Shown piece after piece: positions 2,291 through 11,212 of a stretch of DNA of 42,906 nt. The notes under the pieces are model-generated. The model did no database searches, was not told the origin of the DNA, and worked only from the letters and a program-made list of their open reading frames with translations. The stretch lies in assembly GCA_019912395.1 (NCBI GenBank), contig JAIOIH010000081.1, forward strand, positions 1-42,906. The letters run 5' to 3'. Origin of the DNA: Flavobacteriales bacterium (GTDB lineage Bacteria > Bacteroidota > Bacteroidia > Flavobacteriales_F > PHOS-HE28). The position numbers were made by a program, and so were the translations under genes. Each line of letters begins with the position of its first letter. The stretch's first letter is position 1.

Positions 2291-2358
2291 CAGGGCTTCG
2301 AGTGCGCTTCGAGTGCGCTTCGAGTGATCGCTCGCACTCGCGACACGCGAGCGCTATC
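2258..2358. repeat. REPIN-like paired palindromic element, long form
   Basis: Left half: ATGCTGGC...GCCAGCAT inverted repeat (2258-2290). Right half: CACTCGCGACACGCGAGCG (hairpin CTCGCG/CGCGAG) ending at 2358. The spacer holds three tandem copies of the 11-mer CTTCGAGTGCG or a variant (2296-2326). The sister element at 5522-5600 has only one copy, which accounts exactly for the length difference (101 against 79 bp). Two inverted REPs joined by a spacer is the layout known for REPINs mobilised by RAYT transposases. Confidence 0.75.
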
Positions 2359-2392
2359 CCAAAACGTGGACGTTCGCGCTACCGTGCTGCGG

Positions 2393-5521: not shown

Positions 5522-5600
5522 ATGCTTGCGCTCGCGTGTCGCGAGTGCCAGCATGTGGGCTTCGAGTGATTGCCCGCACCCGCGACACGCGAGCGCTATC
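5522..5600. repeat. REPIN-like paired palindromic element, short form
   Basis: A 79-bp sister of the element at 2258-2358. The left palindrome is CGCTCGCGTGTCGCGAGTG, the spacer has one GGCTTCGAGTG 11-mer, and the right palindrome is CGCGACACGCG followed by AGCGCTATC. The two halves are imperfect inverted copies of each other. It occupies the gap between the small gene at 5279-5479 and the T9SS gene at 5775; the rest of that gap shows nothing recognisable. Confidence 0.75.
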
Positions 5601-5774
5601 TGAGGGTGGGGTCGGAACCAGTCCAACCGGTCTTGCAAGACCCGGCGGCTTTGGGCGCAGCTCCTTGGCGGAAGCCATGGGTCCCGGTACCGGAAGCGGA
5701 AAAACCACATGAATATATGAGAAGGACATGGCATTGATCATTCTTAAAATTGTTGATCCAAAAACTTGAGATAA

Positions 5775-6185
5775 ATGAAGACACGCACCAACACATCGCT
5801 GCCGCTGTTCCTGATGCTCTTGTCAGCCCCCTTGCTGGGCCAAACCTTGGAGCACGACAATCTCACCCCTCAGTTCGGGGAAGTCTTTGAGATCAACGAA
5901 ACTTCCTATGAAGCCACGAATACCGGAAGCGCCGGAATGATCTGGGATTTTTCCGCGCTACCCGGAACCCCTGCCTATTCCCTGACCTTCTTGGATCCGG
6001 CGGGCACACCCGGCGGGTCATCCGCTCCGAATGCAACCCATGCAGCGGATTCCCAGCAGGAGGTGATCGAATATTATGCTTATTCCCCGGAAGGCATTGA
6101 CTATTACGGGGCGTATTCAACGTTATTCGAATATTATGGCATTTACCAAGACCCGGAGCGAAGGCTTCAATTCCCCACAAGTTTG
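5775..6185 (+). pseudogene. T9SS-sorted secreted protein, 5' part (split by IS)
   Basis: The N-terminal 137 codons of a secreted protein. Residues 1-22 are a Sec signal peptide (MKTRTNTSLPLFLMLLSAPL, then LGQ). The mature part is rich in Gly, Ser, Tyr and Thr. The reading frame is interrupted after SL at 6185 by the IS at 6186-8015; read-through gives only ten further codons from the IS end. Joining 6185 to 8024 gives a continuous frame (FPTSL followed by NTTWEDDL), so the gene was intact before insertion, encoding about 341 residues. The 3' part and sorting domain are at 8016-8638. Function of the secreted domain unknown. Confidence 0.85.
6178..6185. repeat. Target site duplication, left copy (CAAGTTTG)
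   Basis: The eight bases CAAGTTTG directly precede the left terminal inverted repeat of the IS and recur exactly at 8016-8023 directly after the right one. Removing the IS plus one copy restores the reading frame of the host gene. Confidence 0.85.
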
Positions 6186-8015
6186 AGTCCACTCCGAAAA
6201 CTCGATCAGGATAGTTGATAAAGTGTGCTCATGCACAAAAGTATGATGAGCGGTGATCCGTATCTTGAAGCCATGTTCAAAAGGACACCTGATACACAAG
6301 TTGATCTGTTCGAGAATTTCTCGGCACAACTGCCTGCCCGCAAGTCCTCCATGTTGGATGACCCCAATGCCTGGCACAATGTGTTCCTGCGGGAGGTTAC
6401 TTCACGGGTGGATGAGGCGGTCTTCGAGCCGCTGTTCAATGCCGGTGGCCGACCCAATGCTCCGCTGCGTGTGCTCATAGGCATGATGGTGCTAAAGGAA
6501 GGCAACGGTTGGAGCGACAAGCAACTCTTTGACCATTGCCGGTTCGACCTGCGTTGCATGCGGGCCTTGGGGCAGTTCAATATCGAAGATGATGTACCTG
6601 TGGAGTCCACCTACTATGAGCTTCGCAGAAGGCTGAACGAATATCAGAAAGAGCACGGCAAAGACCTTGCGGGAGCAGCCTTTCGCACCGCCACCCAAGG
6701 CCAGATAGAAACCTACGACATCAAGGGTTCAAAGATCCGGATGGACTCCAAGCTCATCCAATCCAACATCGCCAAATCGGGCCGTTTGGAACTGATCTTG
6801 AACACCATTAAGAAGGCCATTAGCACGTTGGACCTAACAGTAGTATCCCAGCTACCGGAGCAGGACATGCAAATGCTCAAGGACCTCAGGGAGAAGAACA
6901 AGACGGTGACCAATATCACCTATCCGTTGGACGATGCGCAGAAAGGCGCACTGCTGATCAGGGCCGGCTACATCATAGAGCGGCTACTACCCCACTGCAT
7001 TGGTGAGCAAACCTTGGCCCGGCTCTATCAAGAACACTATCAACAGGTGCCCATAGAGCAGGACCAGGACGAGCCGGGCGGTCCTGACCAGCAGAAGGTG
7101 GCGTTGAGGCCCCCGGGCAGTATCCCGGCAAACAGCCTGCAGTCCGCCCATGACCCGCAGGCGGCATACCGTCGCAAGGGCCAACAAAAAGTATCGGGCT
7201 ATCATGCCAACATCACCGAGACATACGACCCGTCCAATCCCTTCGAGCTGCTAACCGATGTACACGTGGATGGGGCCGACATCTCAGAGGCCACCTTTCT
7301 ACAGCCCGCTGTGGAGAACAGCAACGCGGTATTGGGCCCTCAGGCCGTTGAACATGTGACCACCGATGGCGGGTACGACAGCATAGAGAACCGAGAGGTG
7401 ATGGCCCAACAAGGCAGCCCCCATTGGAACATGGCCAAGCACAAGGGCACCCGGCAGCGCTATGCGATAAGTGTGGATGAACATGGCCAACTACAGGTGT
7501 ACTGTACGAAAACAGACGCCCAATGCGAGCACAACATGGCCAAAAAGGGAGATAAGCTGATAATCCACCATAAGGATGGAAGCAAGAGGTACATGACCCG
7601 CAAAGAATTGGAGGAATATCTGCTCCTACAAGCCCACCTGAGCCACCAGAAGCAGGAGGATGCCAACATCCGCCCCAATGTGGAAGCCACCATTCATCAG
7701 GTCTTCCATAGGTTGCTCAAAAGGGACAAGATGAAATACCGGGGAATGTTCAAGTGCAAGTTGTACGTCCTCTCACGCGCTTGGTGGACCAATTTCAGAA
7801 GGATCCTGAAAAACGAAGTGGAAAAGACCGCATCAGGCCTTGTTGCTCAACTTTTGCGCGCCATAAGCGTCCTGTTCGAACCAAACCAAGTGATCCTCCC
7901 AAGATCGAGGTCGCAGAAATATACATTCCAACCGATCCAACTCTTCGCAAAAAGCAGCCTATCGCCCCGAAACTCCAACGCATCAGTTCAGAATGGTCAA
8001 TAACCGGAGTGGGCT
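6186..8015 (+). mobile_element. Complete IS1182-family insertion sequence (1830 bp)
   Basis: The ends are terminal inverted repeats AGTCCACTCCG (6186-6196) and its complement at 8005-8015, with one mismatch (T/C). They are flanked by the 8-bp direct repeat CAAGTTTG. A single transposase gene fills the element, stopping only 2 bases before the right repeat. The match of ends, target duplication and restored host frame marks a fairly recent insertion. The family call comes from the transposase. Confidence 0.88.
6231..8003 (+). CDS. IS1182-family transposase
   Basis: A DDE transposase of about 590 residues, the usual length for IS1182. The N-terminal DNA-binding region carries the family pattern LIGMMVLKEGNGWSDKQLFD followed by HCRFDLRCM. 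Catalytic residues are probably D in RMDSKLI, D in TDGGYDS and E in NVEATIHQVF, the last followed by the family's KYRG segment. No frameshift or stop interrupts it, so it is potentially active. A GTG at 6225 is two codons upstream; I prefer the ATG at 6231. The last ~45 codons run almost to the right inverted repeat. Confidence 0.92.
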   Translation: MHKSMMSGDPYLEAMFKRTPDTQVDLFENFSAQLPARKSSMLDDPNAWHNVFLREVTSRVDEAVFEPLFNAGGRPNAPLRVLIGMMVLKEGNGWSDKQLFDHCRFDLRCMRALGQFNIEDDVPVESTYYELRRRLNEYQKEHGKDLAGAAFRTATQGQIETYDIKGSKIRMDSKLIQSNIAKSGRLELILNTIKKAISTLDLTVVSQLPEQDMQMLKDLREKNKTVTNITYPLDDAQKGALLIRAGYIIERLLPHCIGEQTLARLYQEHYQQVPIEQDQDEPGGPDQQKVALRPPGSIPANSLQSAHDPQAAYRRKGQQKVSGYHANITETYDPSNPFELLTDVHVDGADISEATFLQPAVENSNAVLGPQAVEHVTTDGGYDSIENREVMAQQGSPHWNMAKHKGTRQRYAISVDEHGQLQVYCTKTDAQCEHNMAKKGDKLIIHHKDGSKRYMTRKELEEYLLLQAHLSHQKQEDANIRPNVEATIHQVFHRLLKRDKMKYRGMFKCKLYVLSRAWWTNFRRILKNEVEKTASGLVAQLLRAISVLFEPNQVILPRSRSQKYTFQPIQLFAKSSLSPRNSNASVQNGQ

Positions 8016-8638
8016 CAAGTTTGAACACCACTTGGGAGGACGATCTTGGTGGTCCGTGGATGGCCTCGGGGCTAGCTGCATACACTTATGGTCATATCTC
8101 CTGCGTCGCCGATGGCGCGGGCACGTTGATCATGCCCTACGGCACGGTGGAGAACGTATTGCGGATATCCACCAGCTACAGCGATTCTGATGTATACATC
8201 GGTTCCGGATACATGAATTACCTCGTGGAAATAGTGGACTTCTACAAGCCCGGCGTTCCATACCCCCTGCTCTCCTTTAGTCGCCAGCGCGCAGGTGGCT
8301 CGATCAGCAATGACAGTGCGAATTTCGATTATGGCGCTTGGTTGGCCTTTGCCACTTCCGGGGTCCGTGAAGCGGTGGCCGATCCGATCGGCATGGACCT
8401 GGTGCCCAACCCTGCGCATGATGCCACTACAATTCTGTACTCTACCACGGGGGAGGCATTGAACCTGTCCATCTTTGACGCAACTGGCCGGTTGGTGCGC
8501 TCCGCCATACTTGGACCGCAGCCCGTGGGTATCGGCAGGCATGTGGTGGACCTGAGTTCATTGGCACCGGGATTGTATTCCGTACAGATCGCCACAGCCA
8601 AGGGGCAACGCGGGACAAAGCTCCTCTTAGTGGAGTAG
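8016..8638 (+). pseudogene. T9SS-sorted secreted protein, 3' part with type A sorting domain
   Basis: Begins with the right copy of the target duplication and continues the frame of 5775-6185 for 204 more codons. The last ~80 residues form a T9SS type A sorting domain: a MDLVPNPAHDATTI start, then LNLSIFDATGRLVR, then LAPGLYSVQIATAKGQR and a terminal LLVE. In the Bacteroidota this domain directs export through the PorV/PorU route and surface attachment or release. Split from its signal peptide by the IS, this part cannot be exported by the normal path, so the gene is inactivated unless the IS excises. Confidence 0.85.
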
Positions 8639-9115: not shown

Positions 9116-9323
9116 GAGATGGCGATTCGCTGATGCAGGTGATTAGCTGATCAGCTGATGGCTGCTTCGAGAGGATCCATCAGCTAAATACCCGCACTCG
9201 CGACACGCGAGCGCTATCTGAGATGCCGATTAGCTGATGCGGTGGATTAGCTGATCAGCTGATGGGTGCTTCGAGCGGATACATCACTTGAATGGCCGCA
9301 CTCGCGGCACGCGAGCGCTATCT
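9116..9323. repeat. 104-bp tandem duplication carrying REP palindromes
   Basis: Two units of exactly 104 bp (9116-9219 and 9220-9323), each starting GAGATnnCGATT and ending CGCGnCACGCGAGCGCTATCT, followed by the start of a third (GAGATACCGAT). Each contains TTAGCTGATCAGCTGATGG, itself a palindrome, and the right-half REP seen in the REPINs at 2258-2358 and 5522-5600. Units differ at several positions, so the duplication is not recent. It lies immediately after the Nramp gene's stop. Confidence 0.8.
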
Positions 9324-9343
9324 GAGATACCGATCAGCAGATC

Positions 9344-11212
9344 CTACTTCACCACCAACACCGGCACCTTCACCCGGTGCCGCACCGCATCCACGGTAGC
9401 GCCGAAGAGCAGGTCCTTCAAGCCGCGGTGGCCGTGTGAGCCCATCACTAAGAGGTCGGCCTCGCTGGTGTTCACCAGTTTGGCGATGGCCACTACCGGG
9501 CTGCCTTGGCCCACCACGGCTTCGGCGTTGTAGCCGGCAGCGCGGAGCTTCTCGGCGTAGTGCTCCAGGTTGGTGGCATCGTCCACGGCCTCGCGGTCGC
9601 CGCTGTGCGCGCCGAGGTAGCGGGCGGCGGCGCTTTCGGTGATGTGGATCAGGATGTACTCGGCCACCTTTCCGCCTTGGGCGATGGCGGTGTTCAGCAC
9701 CCGCTCGTCCAGCGGCTTGAATTCCACGGTCACGGCGATGCGCTGCGGCGGGCGCAGTTCCTGGACCTTCAGCTCCGGCAGGGTGCTATCGATATGTTGC
9801 TTGGCGGTTCTCAGCTTGGCAAAGAACGGCTTCACGGTGATATAGAGCAGCAGGAGCGCGAAGAGCACGATGACGGGGATCACCACGGTCTCCACCCAGA
9901 TCACGTGCGGTCCACCGCTTTGCAGCCAGCCGTCCACCTCCTGCACCACCAGTTGGGCGTTGAGCACCACGATGATGAGCGCCGTGGCCCACGCCAGCAG
10001 CTGCACCCAGGGCTTGGTGACGAATTTGCCCATGGTCAGCTTGTCGGAGGTAAAGTGGATGAGCGGGATCACGGCGAAGCCCAGCTGCAGGCTGAGCACC
10101 ACTTGGCTGAGGACCAGCAGCTGGCCCAGGGAATCCGGCCCGAACCAGATGATGCTGACGATGGCGGGGATGATGGCGAGCAGGCGGGTGATGAGGCGGC
10201 GGAGCCATGGGCGGATGCGCAGGTCCAGGTAGCCTTCCATCACGATCTGCCCGGCGAGGGTGCCGGTGATGGTGCTGCTTTGGCCCGCGCCGATGAGGGC
10301 GATGGCGAAGAGGGCCGGGGCCATGGTGCCGAAGAGCTCGCCGAGCAACTCGTGCGCCTGATCGATCTCCGCGACATCGTAATGCCCTGCGGTGTGGAAG
10401 GCGGCGGCGGCAAGGATGAGGATGGCGGCGTTGACGAAGAAGGCGAGGTTGAGCGCGATGGTGGTATCGAAGAAGTTGAAGCGGATGGCTTCGCGCATGC
10501 CCTTGTCGGTGCGCTCGAAGCGGCGCGTTTGCACCAGCGAGCTGTGGAGGTAGAGGTTGTGCGGCATCACGGTGGCGCCGATGATGCCGATGGCGATGTA
10601 GAGCGCCTTGTCGGAGAGCGCGGATGGAATGAAGCCTTTGAGGACATCGCCCACCACCGGTTCCACGATGAACATCTCGGCGAGGAAGGAGAGGCCGATC
10701 AAGGTGACGATGGAGACGATGAAGACCTCGAGCAGCCGCATGCCCTTGTTCATCAGGAAGAGGATGAGCAGCGTATCCAGCGCGGTGATGAGCACGCCCC
10801 AGAGCACGGGCAGGCCGAAGAGGAGGTTGAGGCCGATGGCCATGCCCACCACTTCGGCGAGGTCGCAGGCGGCGATGGCGATCTCGGCCATCACGTAGAG
10901 CGGGATGTTCACGATGGGCGGGTAGGTGTGCCTGCTGGCCTGGGCGAGGTCGAGGCCGCGGACGATGCCGAGGCGTGCGCTGAGGCTTTGCAGCAGCAGC
11001 GCCATGAGGTTGCTCATCAGCAGCACCCAGATCAGCTGGTAGCCGAAGGCGGAGCCGCCGGCGATGTCGGTGGCCCAGTTGCCGGGGTCCATGTAGCCCA
11101 CGCTTACCAGGTAGGCGGGGCCGAGGAAGGCGAGGATGCGGCGCCAGCCTTTCGCCGTGGGGATGGCCACGCTGGAATGCGCGTCGCCGAGGGAACGGCG
11201 GTCGTGTGTCAT
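9344..11212 (-). CDS. mntH: Nramp divalent metal transporter fused to a universal stress protein domain
   Basis: The N-terminal ~455 residues are an Nramp-family proton-coupled Mn/Fe importer with the metal-binding motifs DPGN (residues 42-45, first helix) and MPHN (216-219, sixth helix) and about eleven membrane segments. After a linker, residues ~480-622 form a UspA-type domain ending in the nucleotide-binding-type motif GSHGHRGLKDLLFGATVDAV. Standard MntH is about 410-450 residues without this domain; the cytoplasmic Usp module may sense nucleotide or energy state, which is inference. The start overlaps the stop of the upstream repressor gene by 4 bases (ATGA), so the two are translationally coupled and under the repressor's own promoter. 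Confidence 0.93.
   Translation of the reverse strand: MTHDRRSLGDAHSSVAIPTAKGWRRILAFLGPAYLVSVGYMDPGNWATDIAGGSAFGYQLIWVLLMSNLMALLLQSLSARLGIVRGLDLAQASRHTYPPIVNIPLYVMAEIAIAACDLAEVVGMAIGLNLLFGLPVLWGVLITALDTLLILFLMNKGMRLLEVFIVSIVTLIGLSFLAEMFIVEPVVGDVLKGFIPSALSDKALYIAIGIIGATVMPHNLYLHSSLVQTRRFERTDKGMREAIRFNFFDTTIALNLAFFVNAAILILAAAAFHTAGHYDVAEIDQAHELLGELFGTMAPALFAIALIGAGQSSTITGTLAGQIVMEGYLDLRIRPWLRRLITRLLAIIPAIVSIIWFGPDSLGQLLVLSQVVLSLQLGFAVIPLIHFTSDKLTMGKFVTKPWVQLLAWATALIIVVLNAQLVVQEVDGWLQSGGPHVIWVETVVIPVIVLFALLLLYITVKPFFAKLRTAKQHIDSTLPELKVQELRPPQRIAVTVEFKPLDERVLNTAIAQGGKVAEYILIHITESAAARYLGAHSGDREAVDDATNLEHYAEKLRAAGYNAEAVVGQGSPVVAIAKLVNTSEADLLVMGSHGHRGLKDLLFGATVDAVRHRVKVPVLVVK

Follow-up and report, generated by a model that had tools for sequence, protein, structure and literature searches.

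An IS1182-like insertion sequence splits the gene of a T9SS-sorted protein in a Flavobacteriales bacterium of the GTDB lineage PHOS-HE28

The window, by which we mean the whole stretch of 42,906 nt analysed here, belongs to contig JAIOIH010000081.1 of assembly GCA_019912395.1, from a Flavobacteriales bacterium of the GTDB lineage PHOS-HE28, and contains an insertion sequence that lies between the two halves of a gene for a T9SS-sorted protein (Table 1). The 5' half of the gene encodes an N-terminal hydrophobic stretch that, read by eye, resembles a signal peptide, and its frame continues for 10 codons inside the element until a stop at 6216-6218. The sorting domain encoded by the 3' half scores 35.8 bits against PF18962 (cut-off 27) and 35.4 bits against TIGR04183 (cut-off 23). 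Elsewhere in the window, a 24-bp repeat with a palindromic core, CGCGRCACGCGAGCGCTATCTGAG, occurs exactly on the + strand at 5581-5604, 9199-9222, and 9303-9326, with a fourth, partial copy at 2339-2362 (+ strand, 3 mismatches); the copies lie outside the frames taken as genes, none appeared in 100 shuffles, and the exact sequence was found in 8 of the 76 loci examined, all 8 from the window's own contig. The frame at 9344-11212 on the - strand fuses an NRAMP-type metal transporter with a universal stress protein domain.

Table 1. Features of the split gene and of the element inserted in it (positions in the window).
Feature	Position	Strand	Basis and remarks
Split gene, 5' half	5775..6185	+	137 codons; reading frame and homologue comparison
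Target duplication AAGTTT, left copy	6179..6184	+	In the 8-bp reading, CAAGTTTG at 6178-6185
Left terminal inverted repeat GAGTCCACTCCG	6185..6196	+	10 related elements likewise start with GAG or GAC
Transposase	6273..8003	+	Longest ATG frame from 6231; start chosen by alignment with relatives
Right terminal inverted repeat GAGCCCACTCCG (reverse complement)	8005..8016	-	End comparison
Target duplication AAGTTT, right copy	8017..8022	+	In the 8-bp reading, CAAGTTTG at 8016-8023
Split gene, 3' half	8024..8638	+	C-terminal T9SS type A sorting domain (Por_Secre_tail); profile matches and homologues

When 6186-8023 is deleted, that is, the element together with one copy of the repeat, a single open frame of 341 codons is obtained, whose joint reads FPTSL-NTTWEDD, just as a sequence-only reading of this DNA had anticipated; the filled and empty sites differ by these 1838 bp whether the duplication is taken as 6 or 8 bp. 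Homologues of the split gene were searched for in 45 genomes of the genus, among them the genome to which the window belongs. The 3' half was matched in all 45, many of the matches covering the sorting domain only, and the 5' half in 41. From the best matches we aligned 20 genes from 19 other genomes of the genus, leaving out five duplicate hits to these genes and a second, weak match in L017 (24%); some of the aligned genes are truncated at a contig or locus boundary or align over part of the protein only. At the insertion point, between residues 137 and 138, all 20 align without a gap, and in L014 a gap lies slightly upstream of the joint. Together with the sorting-domain scores above their cut-offs, this uninterrupted alignment confirms the earlier view that the insertion splits a T9SS-sorted protein.

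The closest homologue of the restored protein is 45% identical to it. Around the homologues in four regions compared (G004, G022, G059, and G008) there are no neighbours shared with the window, and a fifth region, the 4.4-kb contig of G013, shows only matches of 26-30% to a distant window gene. Since this gene order is unlike that of the window, orthology is not claimed, and the homologues are better described as family members than as proven orthologues. The 5' half is matched four more times in the window's own genome, twice on contig C76 and once each on C77 and C81, all in open frames of 329-393 codons. The split gene thus seems to be one member of a multi-copy T9SS protein family, which tempers the idea that a trait has been lost.

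The 8 bp CAAGTTTG are present at both 6178-6185 and 8016-8023, directly abutting the inner ends AGTCCACTCCG (6186-6196) and CGGAGTGGGCT (8005-8015). The terminal inverted repeats, initially described as complementary, are nearly so: AGTCCACTCCG agrees with AGCCCACTCCG at 10 of 11 positions, and the pair extended by one more base, GAGTCCACTCCG and GAGCCCACTCCG (11/12), borders a single transposase ORF. We estimated how often such an arrangement would arise by chance by scanning the window and 40 first-order random windows for direct repeats next to terminal sequences that pair as inverted repeats at 9 or more of 11 positions and lie 1.0-2.6 kb apart. With an 8-bp repeat, two places were found in the window, of which only the 6178-8023 site reaches 10/11, and 6 pairs over the 40 random windows; with a 6-bp repeat, the numbers were 8 and 164, not far above chance, so that a 6-bp duplication by itself carries little weight. 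The insertion call rests jointly on the ends, the repeat, the enclosed transposase, and the homologues, and it is the transposase and the homologues that rule out chance.

Where exactly the element ends was addressed by comparing 11 elements with both ends readable: the one in the window, four from other Bacteroidota (L045, L055, L056, and L064), and six from haloarchaeal plasmids (L048-L053). L055 is the same element as L054; L057 and L058, two of the three G786 copies, were excluded from the count because, judged by reading, they have lost their ends, and the haloarchaeal elements come from 6 of the 7 matching plasmid records, without H5, which is of one species with H6. The left tip is G and the right tip C in 11/11, and GA is found at both tips in all of them; most of the ends come from a search in which the tip bases had to be complementary to each other, not G and C specifically, and, as the elements are related, the agreement does not amount to 11 independent cases. 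With the G and C tips counted as part of the element, the exact duplication is 6 bp in the window element, L055, and L056; L064 has 5 bp exact, or 6 bp with one mismatch, and five haloarchaeal elements (L048, L049, L051, L052, and L053) have exact 7-bp duplications. A duplication of 5-7 bp therefore accompanies 9 of the 11 elements, the window's counted, while L045 (2-bp agreement) and L050 have both ends present and no duplication.

On this comparison, ends of the form GAG...CTC (6185-8016, 1832 bp) with a 6-bp duplication, AAGTTT, are the more likely drawing, and the duplication of 8 bp first proposed is kept as a real and exact repeat, of which one outer base in each copy (G in the left, C in the right) would more probably be the tip of the element. 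We consider it rather unlikely that the 8 bp CAAGTTTG are the true duplication and that the element starts with AG (6186-8015, 1830 bp), a question that concerns the ends only and not the insertion. The repeat is exact over 8 bp at the window element, which is rarer by chance than 6 bp, and L056 has C-ATAGTT-G on both sides, while the two flanks of L064 read C-N6-G and differ at one position; C and G thus enclose the 6 bp in the window element, L056, and L064, which are 3 of the 4 Bacteroidota elements having a duplication. Against it stand the G and C tips common to the 11 elements, among them L055, in which the two outer bases of the would-be 8-bp repeat disagree and only the inner 6 agree, and the six haloarchaeal elements, five of them with exact 7-bp duplications. 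The enclosing C and G of the window element, L056, and L064 may themselves be a target preference. In the haloarchaeal elements, whose ends can alternatively be drawn with a 5-bp duplication and tips TGA, the five duplications all read AG-N4-T, and two different L050 flanks both fit this pattern, which suggests either that certain targets are preferred or that the tips extend beyond the ends as drawn.

The element's transposase had been called intact, and its frame is indeed open, with the D-D-E residues kept; what changes is the start. The frame from 6231 to 8003 encodes 590 residues. Its M15-F16 (numbering from 6231) are aligned to MF in 5 of 7 relatives (L045, L049, L051, L053, and L054), MF is the annotated start in L049, L051, and L053, and L064 also reads MF there, which makes the ATG at 6273 the likelier start. 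D172, D379, and E485, in the same numbering, are invariant in 8/8 aligned transposases and, judging from their motifs, would form the catalytic D-D-E triad; the enzyme is presumably still able to act. The N-terminal DUF772 domain is recognized (PF05598, 39.4 bits, cut-off 23.1), and the DDE profiles remain below their cut-offs (DDE_Tnp_1, 18.6 bits against 23; DDE_Tnp_1_6, 13.5 against 25.1); DDE_Tnp_1_6 is passed by 4/4 haloarchaeal relatives scanned and not by the two Bacteroidota ones. The best NCBIfam model is IS1182 (NF033551), ahead of the ISNCY and IS5 models and covered from position 29 to 487 of 488, with 90.4 bits against a curated cut-off of 270. IS1182 is likewise the top NCBIfam model in the six relatives scanned, which are six of the seven in the transposase alignment, at 95-134 bits, all under the cut-off. 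The family proposed at first is therefore right as the best model and not as a formal assignment: because the cut-off is not reached, we describe the element as IS1182-like instead of filing it as a member, a divergent element for which, at the level of its transposase, IS1182 would be the best-fitting family and not a settled one.

Searches by DNA, by end pattern, and by transposase all give a single copy of the element in this draft assembly of 87 contigs, in which further copies could be hidden. The ongoing mobility suggested by the sequence-only reading consequently gains no support. Contig C49 was considered as a second IS1182-like copy and rejected, since what it carries (L074, 79-1125) is an unrelated kind of transposase, intact over a frame of its own of 348 aa, weakly matching the IS1182 model and presumably of IS5 type. 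The element is absent from 44/44 other genomes of the genus at E <= 0.001; completeness is 90% or more and contamination 5% or less in 29 of these genomes, and 15 fall outside these limits.

Beyond the genus, relatives are sparse. A sample of 395 genomes of the class gave no match at 1e-20 except the window's own, and an earlier search of 38 other genomes gave two of the class in which some 120 residues match weakly, at 27-30%; a phylum sample of 395 genomes gave one other match at 1e-10, with 37% identity. Around that phylum genome, relatives occur in 2 of 92 genomes of its family, searched with its own transposase, and in 3 of 244 of its class; the class, phylum, and family sets overlap. One relative of 35% identity lies on a Bacteroidales contig of isolate RUG429, a name that presumably indicates a rumen origin. 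Seven of 72,556 plasmid records match, all haloarchaeal by name; the search of viral contigs with the transposase found no relative, and a phage search gave one partial match (24.6% identity over 44% of the query). The G+C content is 53.5% in the element and 59.4% in the remainder of the window, which speaks for an arrival from elsewhere, although the target gene is low as well (55.8%). Third-position G+C is similar in the transposase (67%) and the target gene (65%), so that by this measure the element does not stand out from the gene it interrupts. A single copy in the assembly and the absence from 44 genomes of the genus suggest a horizontal arrival, and the patchy spread of the element and its relatives fits horizontal transfer.

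Taken together, we are highly confident that the locus contains a 1832-bp insertion sequence with a DDE transposase, related to IS1182 and probably acquired horizontally, that inserted into a T9SS cargo gene and duplicated AAGTTT. The anatomy of the element, the duplication, the split frame, the uninterrupted homologues, and the single copy in the assembly are direct observations. The sequence of events would have been the arrival of an IS1182-like element by horizontal transfer and its insertion by the DDE transposase, which would have cut the two target strands 6 (or 8) bp apart and so duplicated AAGTTT, or CAAGTTTG under the drawing that sets each tip one base inward. What the 5' half can now yield would be no more than a secreted stub lacking the sorting domain, and the 3' half would be left without a start and an export signal of its own; with the sorting domain severed from the export signal, this copy of the protein is presumably lost. 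The insertion is probably recent, as had been proposed, given the exact duplication, the two halves still open, and the absence from 44 genomes of the genus.

It is very improbable that the element acts as a reversible switch of a surface protein through precise excision. Removing the element and one repeat copy does restore the frame exactly, but any insertion with a target duplication permits such a restoration on paper, only one state has been seen, and relatives of the split gene stand in open frames elsewhere in the genome (C76, C77, and C81); precise excision across repeats of 6-8 bp is generally rare. We give hardly any credence to an old insertion in which one half still functions, for instance the 3' half through the frame 7754-8638 that opens inside the element. 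In its favour, this frame has 294 open codons, the first a GTG; against it, the frame overlaps the transposase in another register and shows by eye no noticeable export signal, and the duplications are still exact. A recent insertion that inactivated the gene remains our reading of the locus. The event is an ordinary one, one insertion sequence in one member of a gene family, except for the rarity of the element among the relatives of its host. It answers no long-standing question, and it provides a clear-cut case of one T9SS cargo gene put out of action by an insertion sequence, as well as a usable exemplar, with ends, duplication, and transposase start, for a little-sampled IS1182-like branch.

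In comparison with known systems, the element resembles the IS1182 family in being a DDE-type element of about 1.8 kb with a single ORF, a DUF772 domain, and a near full-length profile match, and differs from it in the score of its transposase, which lies below the family cut-off. Duplications of 2 to 60 bp are reported for the family (PMC7335449), a range within which the 6 bp (or 8 bp) found here falls, so that the length is compatible and not diagnostic. IS1272 of Staphylococcus is placed in the IS1182 family and described in another report (PMC5678879) as replacing a target inverted repeat upon insertion and leaving no duplication; in contrast to that description, the window element has an exact duplication of its target, and nothing is missing, not a residue, at the joint against the 20 homologues. 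For ISPse1, an IS1182-family element of Paracoccus, a table row (PMC3281130) gives 1653 bp, 16/16, and 4, which we read as length, inverted repeats, and duplication; on that reading of the columns, and by description only, its duplication is shorter than that of the window element.

The nearest relatives that we found are those in other Bacteroidota (L045, L054-L058, and L064), of which the L045 and L054 transposases are 36% identical to the window's, and those of haloarchaeal plasmids, with transposase identities of 24-27% (L049-L053) and of 24% by tblastn (L048). The haloarchaeal elements are longer, about 2.0-2.1 kb, and 5 of the 6 have the 7-bp duplication of the form AG-N4-T. It is conceivable, though less likely than not, that the window element belongs to a sparse, putatively undescribed IS1182-like branch common to Bacteroidota and haloarchaeal plasmids, the literature having been checked by the IS1182 name only. 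Possible marks of such a branch, put forward with the same caution, would be GAG or GAC tips, duplications of fixed length (6 bp in Bacteroidota and 7 bp in haloarchaea), and target preferences, unlike the duplication-free IS1272.
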